DNA from: an uncultured Fretibacterium sp.
GTDB taxonomy: Bacteria; Synergistota; Synergistia; Synergistales; Aminobacteriaceae
NCBI GenBank assembly: GCA_946186205.1
Contig: CAMHMH010000005.1
Location: forward strand, 1 to 64,000
Length of the DNA stretch: 64,000 nucleotides
Direction of reading: 5' to 3'
The notes beneath the pieces were generated by a model that saw nothing but the letters and a program-made list of their open reading frames with translations, did not search any database and was not told the DNA's origin. Position numbers and translations under genes: made by a program. Of this stretch, positions 49,868 through 53,201 are shown piece after piece; the first letter of the stretch is position 1; each line of letters starts with the position of its first letter.

Positions 49868-49900
49868 TAATCGCTGTCCTTTTTACGGGGCGGCGGTTTT
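49868..49900 (+). terminator. Intrinsic terminator
   Basis: CGCTGTCC...GGGGCGGCGGTTTTTTTT. Confidence 0.6.
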
Positions 49901-49920
49901 TTTTAGGGAGGATATGAATC

Positions 49921-51873
49921 ATGCACTTCATGGAACATATTGCTGTTCAAATAGCACTGCCGGTTATTACGGCCTTTATTTTTGGGTGCCTGATAATGTA
50001 CATGTCAAAGCACCCGCAGAAAGATACAAAGTTCCTGAAACGTCTGTTTATCGGAATGTTCGCTTGCGGAGTCGCCATATACTGCTACTGGCACTGCCAA
50101 AGTCTTGTGCTGGCTTTCAAAGGTGAATTAGAGAACAAGTATCTGGAGAAGACTCTGGAGTGGGTGAAGGATGATTCCGCATGGCTGTATTATGTTCCGT
50201 ACGTAGTCATGAAAGCAGTAATCGATGTAGGAATGATGTTCTACGGGCACGGCAACAGCACTTTGTTTTACAGTCTGCCGATCTCTAAAAATCCTGCATG
50301 GGTTTTCTTCTTCAGCCTTCTTCACCTGGCCGCTTTCGGCATAACAGCAAGCGCGCTCCTGATATATTTCGGAAATGAGCTGCGGAAATGGGCCAGCATA
50401 GTGAAAAACAAAATCTCTAATTTTTCCGATGCGGATCTGATTTTCGGGGTCAATGCAAATTCGCTCGCGCTTGGAAGGAAGCTCTCTGAAATAAAAGGCA
50501 ATATGCTTGTGTACGTCGACAGCATGAGCAAGGACGATTACGAGTCATCAATAAGTAGACTCGGAGGAATCGTATATTCCGACACAGATGCATTGAAGGC
50601 TTCTGAGTCATTCCTGAAACGAATCAGCATTAAGGGGCGCAAAAGAAAACTGAGGCTATTTGCCCTCTCAGATGATTACGACAATAACATTCAGTACGCG
50701 CAGAAGATGCTGAAGAGTCTTGAGGGTCTTCACATACCGTCCGAACAAACAGAGCTGATACTTCTGGGAACGAATGAAAGCAAAGGAATGATCTTTCAGG
50801 CGAGCGGAGAAAGATACGGTTACGGAAATGTCATCGCGTTCGACGAGTACGAAATGACAGCCCGTCTTCTGCTTTGCAAGTACCCTCTTTGCAGCTTCAT
50901 AAATTTTGACGAAAACGGGAAGGCCACAGAAGATGTAGAAGTGCTTATAGGCGGTTTCGGTCGCATCGGTCATGAAGTATTGCGTAAAATTTTTGCTAAC
51001 GGCCGCTTTGAGGGAAGCAAATTGACAATCAAGATATTCGATCCGAAATACGGAGACAAATCAGGGTTCGTAGGATCTCAGTACTATAAAATGTTTGCTA
51101 CTCCCGACGCTGATATAGGCTTTGAACATTACGACATAAGGAGCGGGGATTGCTTCAAGTTCCTTCAGGAGCACGCACAAAAGTTAAAGTACATAGTCAT
51201 ATGCCTTGAGGACAGAGAGACAGCGAGGAATATAGCCCTGCGGATGGTCGACAGGCTTCAGGCTATGGGATGCCCGCAGAATGTTTATACCTGTGACTCA
51301 AAAAGCATAAGGTGCTACTCACATGACTCGGAAAATTGCGAGCCTCTCTCGATATATGACTCGGATTTGCTTTACTCTGAGGAGTTCGACAGGTACGCAA
51401 AAGAACTTCACCATTACTACAGCAAGGGCAATAGCTTGGCTGAAGACTGGACGCAGTGCGGATATTTCCACAGGATGAGCAGCCGAGCAAGCGTCGATTA
51501 CCTGATACCGCTTCTGCAAAAAATCACAGCGGGCACAAACTCATTAACGCCCGAACAAAGAGAGAATCTCGCAAAGTGTGAGCATCTGAGATGGTGCGCG
51601 TTTCACTATACATTCGGGTATGAGCCAATGGAGATTGAAGAATTTGTTGACCGTCTCAAAAAGAAGCAAGCCGGAACGCTCGAACCCGGTGAAACTCCCA
51701 GACAGGACACGAAAGCAAAGAAGCATGTGTGCCTCGTAAGCTGGGATAATCTCGACGATGTTTCACAGGCTGAAAACTCAATCACGCACGGCAATAAAGA
51801 CTACAAACAGAATGACAGGGACAATATTGACGTTATCATGGGACTCATAAAGCCTGCAAATCATAGCTGCTGA
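49921..51873 (+). CDS. Multi-pass membrane protein with TrkA-N-like Rossmann region(s) and C-terminal RyR-like domain
   Basis: N-terminal TMs; DVEVLIGGFGRIGHEVLRKIF (GxGxxG); C-term LAKCEHLRWCAFHYTFGYEP...KKHVCLVSWDNLDD...NDRDNIDVI, as in prokaryotic RyR domains. Confidence 0.75.
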   Translation: MHFMEHIAVQIALPVITAFIFGCLIMYMSKHPQKDTKFLKRLFIGMFACGVAIYCYWHCQSLVLAFKGELENKYLEKTLEWVKDDSAWLYYVPYVVMKAVIDVGMMFYGHGNSTLFYSLPISKNPAWVFFFSLLHLAAFGITASALLIYFGNELRKWASIVKNKISNFSDADLIFGVNANSLALGRKLSEIKGNMLVYVDSMSKDDYESSISRLGGIVYSDTDALKASESFLKRISIKGRKRKLRLFALSDDYDNNIQYAQKMLKSLEGLHIPSEQTELILLGTNESKGMIFQASGERYGYGNVIAFDEYEMTARLLLCKYPLCSFINFDENGKATEDVEVLIGGFGRIGHEVLRKIFANGRFEGSKLTIKIFDPKYGDKSGFVGSQYYKMFATPDADIGFEHYDIRSGDCFKFLQEHAQKLKYIVICLEDRETARNIALRMVDRLQAMGCPQNVYTCDSKSIRCYSHDSENCEPLSIYDSDLLYSEEFDRYAKELHHYYSKGNSLAEDWTQCGYFHRMSSRASVDYLIPLLQKITAGTNSLTPEQRENLAKCEHLRWCAFHYTFGYEPMEIEEFVDRLKKKQAGTLEPGETPRQDTKAKKHVCLVSWDNLDDVSQAENSITHGNKDYKQNDRDNIDVIMGLIKPANHSC

Positions 51874-51930: not shown

Positions 51931-51966
51931 TTCCCCCTGCCTGAAAATGACAGAGGGATTTTATTT
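51931..51966. terminator. Intrinsic terminator
   Basis: TCCCCCTG...CAGAGGGA with ttttatttt on one side and aaaaaaaaa on the other. Confidence 0.7.
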
Positions 51967-51977
51967 TCACCGTTCAA

Positions 51978-53201
51978 TCATGCTAATACGTTCTCTAGTT
52001 TCGCCTCACTGATTCCGTGCTTCTCTGCATATCCCGTAAGTATAAGCGTCAAAGCTCCGTCGCCCGTAACGTTGCAGGCAGTCCCGAATGAATCCTGAAG
52101 CGCGAAAATCGTCAGCATTAACGCAGTCCCGGTTGCGTCAAAACCAAGTACACCCGTAATCAGTCCGAGCGATGCCATGACAGTGCCTCCGGGGACTCCT
52201 GGCGCGCCAATCGCAAAAACTCCCAGCAGCAAGCAGAAGAGAATCATATTGCCGACAGAAGGATATACCCCGTAAAGTATCTTTGACACGGCCATGACGA
52301 AAAATGTCTCAGTCATGACGGAGCCGCAAAGATGAATATTCGCGAACAACGGAATGCCGAAATTCACCATGTCATCACGCAGAGTCGGTTCTGACTTCTT
52401 CGCGCACTCAAGAGCAACAGAGAGAGTCGCCGCGCTCGACATTGTGCCGACTGCTGTCATGTATGCGGGGCCGTAATGCTTCAGAATGCTGAACGGGTTG
52501 CGACCAGAATATGCCCCGGCGATCCCGTAAAGCAATGCGAGCCAGATATAATGCCCGGCCATGACCATCAATATTATCATGACAAACACGGGGAACTGCT
52601 CAGTGATTGAGCCTTCATACGCAAGTCCGCAGAATGTCGTGCCGATGAGCCAGGGCAGAACGGGAATCAACAGCCTTGTTACGATGCTGAGTACTATCTG
52701 CTGGAACTCCTCAAGAAGAGCGATGACCGTTTTGCTTTTGTTCCACGCCGCCGCAAGACCTACAGTGATTGACACGAACAAGGCAGAAATCACCGGCATA
52801 ATCGGGTTAATGTTGAGCTTGAATACGACATCAGGAAGAGCCTTCAGCCCCTCGACTTCTGAAGCAATATTCATGAACGGGAGAATCGTATAGCCTGAGA
52901 ATGTCGCGAAGAACGCCGCGCCTATTGATGAGACGTAAGCAAGAATCAGCGCAAGGATTAACATTCTTGAAGCGTTGCTGCCCATTCGAGTTATTGACGG
53001 TGCTACGAAGCCGATCACGATCAGCGGGACGCAGAAATTTATGAACTGCCCCGTTATGTAGCGCACTGTTACTACGATGTTCATTACCGCGTTGACAAAT
53101 GAACCTTCCGATGAAGCGAGCGCGAGTCCTGCTGCTGTGCCAAGCGCAAGAGCTACTATCAGCTTGAACGGAAGCGAGCTTGTGAAACCTTTGCTGCTCA
53201 T
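51978..53201 (-). CDS. Dicarboxylate/amino acid:cation symporter (DAACS)
   Basis: ALALGTAAGLALASSEGSF; GTMSSAATLSVALECAKK; GAPGVPGGTVMASLGLITGVLG. Confidence 0.9.
   Translation of the reverse strand: MSSKGFTSSLPFKLIVALALGTAAGLALASSEGSFVNAVMNIVVTVRYITGQFINFCVPLIVIGFVAPSITRMGSNASRMLILALILAYVSSIGAAFFATFSGYTILPFMNIASEVEGLKALPDVVFKLNINPIMPVISALFVSITVGLAAAWNKSKTVIALLEEFQQIVLSIVTRLLIPVLPWLIGTTFCGLAYEGSITEQFPVFVMIILMVMAGHYIWLALLYGIAGAYSGRNPFSILKHYGPAYMTAVGTMSSAATLSVALECAKKSEPTLRDDMVNFGIPLFANIHLCGSVMTETFFVMAVSKILYGVYPSVGNMILFCLLLGVFAIGAPGVPGGTVMASLGLITGVLGFDATGTALMLTIFALQDSFGTACNVTGDGALTLILTGYAEKHGISEAKLENVLA

Follow-up and report, generated by a model that had tools for sequence, protein, structure and literature searches.

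A gene found in the DNA of an uncultured Fretibacterium sp. encodes a 650-residue membrane protein, in which a membrane part homologous to that of K+ channels is followed by two Rossmann lobes of the RCK type and by a C-terminal ryanodine receptor (RyR) domain of the R12 type. Relatives of the gene lie mostly beside a gene encoding a TIR protein, and for this reason the protein probably receives the signal in an alarm against viruses that is based on NAD. The copy residing in the window, as the whole stretch of 64,000 nucleotides that was analysed is called here, is an orphan, and its own function is therefore less certain than that of its relatives. We give an even chance to the reading that the protein is a membrane-bound RyR-domain receptor, derived from an RCK-type ligand-gated K+ channel, which serves as receiver/effector of a TIR-based, Thoeris-like signalling.

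The gene and the anatomy of its product

The gene (Table 1) is an intact ORF which starts with ATG and includes all the motifs named in the original prediction. The C-terminal block EHLRWCAF...KKHVCLVSWDNLDD...NDRDNIDVI is real and almost invariant across relatives, and its occurrence in homologues from 14 other genomes of the genus and in loci from other phyla places it beyond chance. The gene had been described as a single-gene unit flanked by terminator-like hairpins. The hairpins exist. The window copy stands alone, which most members of the family do not. Because the hairpin scan detected 4 sites, versus 2.2 +/- 1.6 in shuffled sequences, and the right-hand hairpin (51958-51932) belongs to the strand of the converging symporter gene, the term monocistronic rests mainly on gene order. 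The gene sits between two blocks which do not adjoin each other in the relatives examined. Most genomes of the genus have the converging symporter-like gene (window 51978-53201), with other neighbours elsewhere.

Table 1. Location of the RyR-domain gene, of its parts and of flanking signals in the window
Feature	Position	Strand	Basis
RyR-domain, channel-like membrane protein of 650 aa	49921..51873, stop included	+	intact ORF, homologues, AlphaFold model
Putative ribosome-binding site AGGGAGGA	49905..49912	+	8 nt 5' of the ATG (49921); read directly
Terminator-like hairpin of the upstream sugar ABC operon	49869..49898	+	hairpin scan
Terminator-like hairpin between the RyR-domain gene and the converging symporter gene	51932..51958	-	hairpin scan
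N-terminal helix pair (residues 2-30, 36-66): additional TM helix and outer helix of the pore domain	49924..50118	+	model
Pore-helix/filter-like segment, residues 85-123	50173..50289	+	model, column counts, hhalign
Long helix corresponding to the inner helix, residues 125-165, continued by the first Rossmann lobe	50293..50415	+	model
First Rossmann/RCK-like lobe, residues 171-320	50431..50880	+	model; Foldseek matches GsuK, Slo1
Second Rossmann/RCK-like lobe, residues 339-466	50935..51318	+	model; weak Pfam Rossmann matches
RyR (R12-like) domain, residues 481-643	51361..51849	+	model, Foldseek, profile
EHLRW motif (H555 and W558, putatively matching H75 and W78 of RyDEP)	51580..51594	+	invariant, 41/41
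H602 codon (KKHVCLV), proposed equivalent of RyDEP H100	51724..51726	+	aligned to KKHPCLVPYDEL of the RyR1 chimera
D632 codon (NDRDN), proposed equivalent of RyDEP D117	51814..51816	+	motif order only

Single-sequence scans of the 650-aa protein against Pfam, NCBIfam and PADLOC gave nothing significant. Weak matches to adenovirus GP19K and to GAPDH were discarded as chance or Rossmann-motif matches. Since the protein alone falls below every family cut-off, the RyR and TrkA-N calls needed the relatives. A Pfam RyR scan of the genome hosting the window and of 14 controls found no match in any of them alike, and the comparison is uninformative.

The structure predicted by AlphaFold from 41 aligned sequences (whole chain, mean pLDDT 90.2, pTM 0.81) comprises four helices, the third of which spans residues 85-107, two Rossmann lobes and a helical C-terminal domain, within the limits given in Table 1. 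The N-terminal membrane part is borne out by the model helices and by hydropathy peaks at residues 16 and 47. The segments regarded beforehand as a possible second Rossmann half, NANSLALGRKL (residues 178-188), and as a Rossmann motif, GGFGRIG (residues 344-350, 50950-50970), are placed by the model in two separate lobes, the first and the second, respectively. In a Foldseek search of the PDB the whole chain best matched GsuK (entries with bound ADP and NAD) and Slo1, at E about 5e-4. The layout of RCK-gated K+ channels, with tandem Rossmann/RCK lobes after a pore domain, is thus found in the protein. These nearest solved folds uphold the predicted TrkA-N (RCK)-type regulatory part; the Pfam family PF02254 (TrkA-N) matches 2 of 17 members, weakly (E >= 0.05). 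GsuK is an RCK K+ channel which is activated and opened by ADP and NAD+ (PMC3510474).

Modelled alone, the RyR domain reached a pLDDT of 94 and a pTM of 0.87. Its five best PDB matches in Foldseek are all RyR structures (best match, prob 1.00, though with E no better than 0.05 and TM about 0.5), and include a Bacteroides/human R12 chimera, a Bacteroides RyR protein and human RyR3 Repeat12, the matched entries of which hold adenine nucleotides and dantrolene or another ligand. Phage RyR-domain proteins top the Foldseek matches in the BFVD viral library (prob 1.00). The family profile of the C-terminal domain matches the RyR1 chimera at E 4.5e-5, and RyRs make up 8 of the 10 matches of this search, including all 4 best. 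The window C-terminus, taken by itself, scored 12.6 bits against PF02026 (E 0.16), under a cut-off exceeded by a divergent Arcobacter homologue (L025) and by the K+-channel paralogues. Profile and fold hence support the RyR domain. Of the two outcomes named beforehand as refuting the prediction, a lack of any RyR or TrkA-N match by profile or structure and a consistent tie to an ordinary K+ transport operon, neither was observed.

The putative ligand site is strongly conserved. Among 41 sequences E554, H555, R557 and W558 are found in all, H602 and D632 in 40 each. H555 and W558 have the same spacing as H75 and W78 of the phage protein RyDEP, and the H602 motif KKHVCLV aligns to KKHPCLV of the RyR1 chimera. 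In RyDEP, H75, W78, H100 and D117 contact a ligand derived from 3'cADPR, H75 and D117 being catalytic (PMC13232231). The same study reported that phage RyR domains bind 2'/3'cADPR, two of them with measured nM affinity, and that most RyDEP homologues tested bind the signals without cleaving them (PMC13232231). We propose, from the order of motifs, that H555, W558, H602 and D632 correspond to the four ligand residues of RyDEP, and are retained. The Arcobacter RyR protein, when used as query, matched phages other than that of the DyoEdafos RyDEP.

Relatives and channel ancestry

Homologues 49-63% identical, most of them full length, are present in 14 other genomes of the genus. The distribution is patchy, as 15 of 43 genomes are positive, counting that of the window. 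A 27% homologue was found by genome search in another family of the same order, and a Butyrivibrio plasmid carries a homologue (38%). A split version, in which TrkA_N and RyR are encoded by adjoining genes followed by a DUF4062 gene, resides on an Arcobacter plasmid. This is the divergent homologue L025, which scores 54 bits against the family profile and exceeds the Pfam RyR cut-off (4e-10); the preceding gene exceeds the TrkA_N cut-off (5e-9). A profile-guided scan of named genomes, with the alignment as query, yielded 75 loci. The same contigs gave no match when scanned with a single sequence. The loci span Synergistaceae from ruminants and other guts, Lachnospiraceae, Oscillospiraceae, other Clostridia, Solobacterium, Coriobacteriales and Treponema and, more distantly, Bifidobacterium and Chloroflexi. 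Many are metagenome-assembled contigs, in which ORFs were called by the longest-ORF rule, and G+C-rich loci feature spurious ORFs on the opposite strand. Searches of phages and of IMG/VR retrieved no close relatives.

In about 35 clostridial loci the family gene is directly adjoined by a second gene, encoding about 515 amino acids. Each of the 4 sister proteins scanned has an ion-channel and an RyR domain according to Pfam, and 30 of 31 sequences have the VGYGD filter. The profile of the sister gene retrieves solved K+ channels at 5e-21 and RyRs at 1e-17. When aligned by hhalign to this sister, the window family matches over residues 109-616 (P 99.9, E 5e-33). The match begins at G109, just past the filter, and pairs residues 125-165 with the inner helix of the sister. 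In the window protein the place of TVGYGD is occupied by V103-x-x-M106-F107-x-G109, and according to column counts the whole window family features VxxMFxG instead of the K+ filter T-V-G-Y/F-G. VxxMFxG is no known ion-selective filter sequence. For this reason the window protein has not been filed as a K+ channel; its homology to an unmistakable TVGYGD K+ channel indicates that the family is channel-derived, with an altered filter. The gating at the membrane that had been suggested earlier can accordingly be made specific, because the membrane part is homologous to that of a K+ channel. In Clostridia the family protein may form mixed channels with the K+ subunit. No sister K+-channel gene was found in the Synergistaceae loci that were read.

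The sister genes, exemplified by L070:9835-11394 and about 35 similar ones, encode bacterial K+ channels with the TVGYGD filter and a fused RyR domain, and are found beside the window-type family. Genes of 880 codons located near some clostridial copies resemble surface proteins, and do not look like components of the system.

TIR neighbours and the orphan copy

In 10 of the 13 loci readable in the genus, a gene encoding a TIR (9 loci) or a TIR-like DUF4062 protein (1 locus) is found directly downstream, and overlaps the RyR gene or lies within about 40 bp. The window is one of three exceptions, the others being G019, where part of the RyR domain has been lost, and G040, where the frame is broken. 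A TIR gene is located within two genes of the module in 26 of 55 other loci; TIRs account for 26 of 196 near genes, versus 2 of 220 at four or more genes away (p 1.7e-7). TIR genes also co-occur with the family in the genus, being found in 14 of 15 genomes with the gene and in 6 of 28 without (Fisher p about 1e-5). TIR_2 is the commonest Pfam family (28) among 82 nearest same-strand neighbours. The counts per locus (10 of 13, 26 of 55) were obtained with a local profile; the identification of partners and the tally of the 82 neighbours, with Pfam. Against the pairing, in about half of the wider loci no TIR was seen at a distance of up to two genes, and some members seem to stand alone beside housekeeping genes such as uvrA.

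Partners match TIR_2 (PF13676), often also ThsB_TIR (PF08937), and have tails of the Sel1, NB-ARC/TPR, WD-like or LRR type. A glutamate, which we take to be the catalytic residue known from TIR NADases, is found at the corresponding column in 46 of 53 aligned TIR segments. PADLOC gave only weak TIR and ThsB-like matches on partners, and left RyR proteins unmatched. A DUF4062 gene adjoins the Arcobacter copy and the L041 and L121 copies. A SIR2-like protein, possibly an alternative NAD-consuming partner, is encoded beside a distant homologue in a Chloroflexi MAG (L120:2091-4625). With SIR2-like and DUF4062 neighbours besides TIR, the partner is repeatedly NAD-linked or TIR-like. The statement that no partner gene is visible is hence correct for the window, and does not apply to the family, which has TIR, DUF4062 and, once, SIR2-like partners. 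The suspected link to nucleotide-centred conflict signalling is supported by the TIR neighbours. An ordinary K+ transport operon was considered and rejected, as neither TrkH/Ktr-type nor other K+ transporters are present among the 25 commonest neighbour families listed, which are led by TIR_2.

Some loci have a peculiar organization. The TIR protein encoded at L042:9185-10897 (G030, contig C23) contains, in this order, a TIR, a 72-residue remnant of the inner-helix region of the RyR protein and another TIR; it seems to be a fusion that arose by deletion where TIR and RyR genes stood in tandem. L043, on contig C24, mirrors it, being the same stretch in opposite orientation. At L026:1850-14389 (G023, contig C281) four TIR-like ORFs surround one RyR gene, whose direct partner is a TIR-NB-ARC-TPR protein, similar to a small NLR of plant type. 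In two genomes (L032:1668-8247 and L039:11-2305) the RyR gene adjoins, by eye, HsdM-like/type I restriction genes, which suggests a defence-island setting. A gene at L113:331-4239, directly before a Treponema family member, encodes a protein of 1303 aa which begins like a membrane protein and matches nothing in Pfam.

No TIR gene is found beside the RyR-domain gene of the window. TIR-TM-Sel1 proteins, 58-71% identical to partner TIRs, are encoded on contigs C1 and C2 of the same genome, and a partnership in trans is therefore possible. Up to 49900-49904, DNA of close relatives is 86-93% identical to that of the sugar-ABC operon lying upstream in the window; from there on the sequences diverge, and in G010 a different gene follows this breakpoint. 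The G040 copy is about 66% identical to the window gene at the DNA level, versus 90% for the flank. The synteny breakpoint and the divergence of the G040 copy next to a similar flank denote an accessory, exchanged element. The window copy either answers to a resident TIR in trans or is a recently orphaned remnant. Elsewhere in the genome of the window, a short ORF region (G000:C9:589-1635, L044) has two TIR_2 matches and is located beside a transposase-like ORF.

Possible roles and known systems

In the reading that we prefer, the TIR protein would sense infection and turn NAD+ into a signal such as an isomer of cyclic ADP-ribose or a similar nucleotide. This signal would be bound by the R12-type RyR domain in the H555/W558/H602/D632 pocket; through the tandem Rossmann/RCK lobes the resulting change would reach the transmembrane pore part, and would lead to the opening or some other impairment of the membrane. 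In many Clostridia the protein would act jointly with the TVGYGD K+-channel subunit, which bears an RyR domain of its own. The narrower proposal that a TIR-made cyclic ADP-ribose isomer opens a small RCK/RyR-domain channel, working as an immune effector in gut bacteria and, in many Clostridia, resulting from the hetero-assembly of K+-filter and filter-less subunits, is advanced tentatively. Such a channel would be a bacterial counterpart of the disputed control exerted by cADPR over animal RyRs.

Other readings, which partly overlap with each other and with the preferred one, are conceivable. The RyR pocket could hydrolyse the signal instead of sensing it. As an enzyme or a sponge removing the TIR-made signal in the manner of RyDEP, the domain would make the protein a membrane-anchored, antitoxin-like safety valve for the neighbouring TIR. 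The proposed equivalents of all four RyDEP residues which bind or cleave 2'/3'cADPR, the catalytic H and D included, are conserved, and the solo window copy would fit as a harmless orphan. However, the fusion to a tandem RCK gating part and to a channel-derived membrane part would be hard to explain, and binding without cleavage is the rule among the RyDEP homologues tested (PMC13232231), so that such a function seems improbable. A nucleotide-responsive ion channel of ordinary physiology, serving redox or NAD sensing in the manner of GsuK and flanked by TIR genes in certain lineages only, would be in keeping with GsuK and Slo1 as nearest solved folds, with the response of GsuK to ADP and NAD+, and with the existence of solo members. 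It is made unlikely by the patchy presence in the genus, the strong co-occurrence and adjacency of TIR genes, a list of the 25 commonest neighbour families that includes none for K+ transport, and the synteny breakpoint at the window copy.

A further reading concerns the window copy only, which might be the non-functional leftover of a TIR and RyR system after loss of the TIR gene. Besides the lack of an adjoining TIR, the state of the two other partnerless copies points this way, as G040 is split over several frames and G019 misses the stretch leading to the second half of the RyR site. Yet the window ORF is intact, keeps every family-invariant site and is preceded by a good ribosome-binding site, and two partner-type TIR genes persist in the genome; we consider a relic rather unlikely.

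The preferred reading, a receptor derived from a channel and coupled to TIR signalling, has its closest parallel in Thoeris (ThsB and ThsA; types I, II and later ones), since in the family, too, a TIR enzyme gene often adjoins the gene of an effector predicted to bind nucleotides. In Thoeris of type II, ThsA likewise sits in the membrane (TM and Macro). Unlike in Thoeris, the proposed effector of the family has no SIR2, SLOG or Macro, and its predicted sensor is an RyR/R12 domain set on a channel-derived RCK protein. Neither ThsA nor its sensors (SLOG, Macro) were matched in Pfam or PADLOC by the window protein or the family members scanned. Lacking a known ThsA sensor domain, and a TIR in the window, the system has not been filed as Thoeris, though Thoeris-like. 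GsuK and Slo1 similarly feature a pore domain followed by tandem RCK lobes; the window family adds an RyR domain and an extra N-terminal helix, and is devoid of the TVGYG filter. With repeat R12 of the animal ryanodine receptor the protein shares the R12 fold, a KKHxCLVxxDEL-like motif and the belonging to an ion-channel-derived protein. It is far smaller, RCK lobes replace the cytosolic shell, and the likeness observed is that of the R12 domain rather than of the Ca2+ pore. The same combination of domains occurs in the prokaryotic RyR and TrkA-N proteins of predicted nucleotide-centred conflict systems, which were reportedly described by Burroughs et al. 2015 (NAR). A literature search, whose scope did not take in this work, retrieved no account of the channel homology, of the K+-channel sister or of the TIR pairing. 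Phage RyDEP/PF02026 proteins have the same domain and, by the proposed equivalence, the same four ligand residues, and their homologues bind 2'/3'cADPR (PMC13232231). They are anti-defence enzymes or sponges, whereas the family carries the RyR domain on a membrane-bound RCK protein, next to the TIR which would produce the signal.

R12 domains which bind or cleave TIR-made cADPR isomers were first reported in 2026, in phages (PMC13232231). TIR signalling is common to bacterial, plant and animal immunity. If the preferred reading is true, the family would place an RyR sensor on the host side, and would extend the effectors of Thoeris-like systems by one of the ion-channel type. It would likewise provide a small model in which the much-debated connection of cADPR with ryanodine receptors could be tested.
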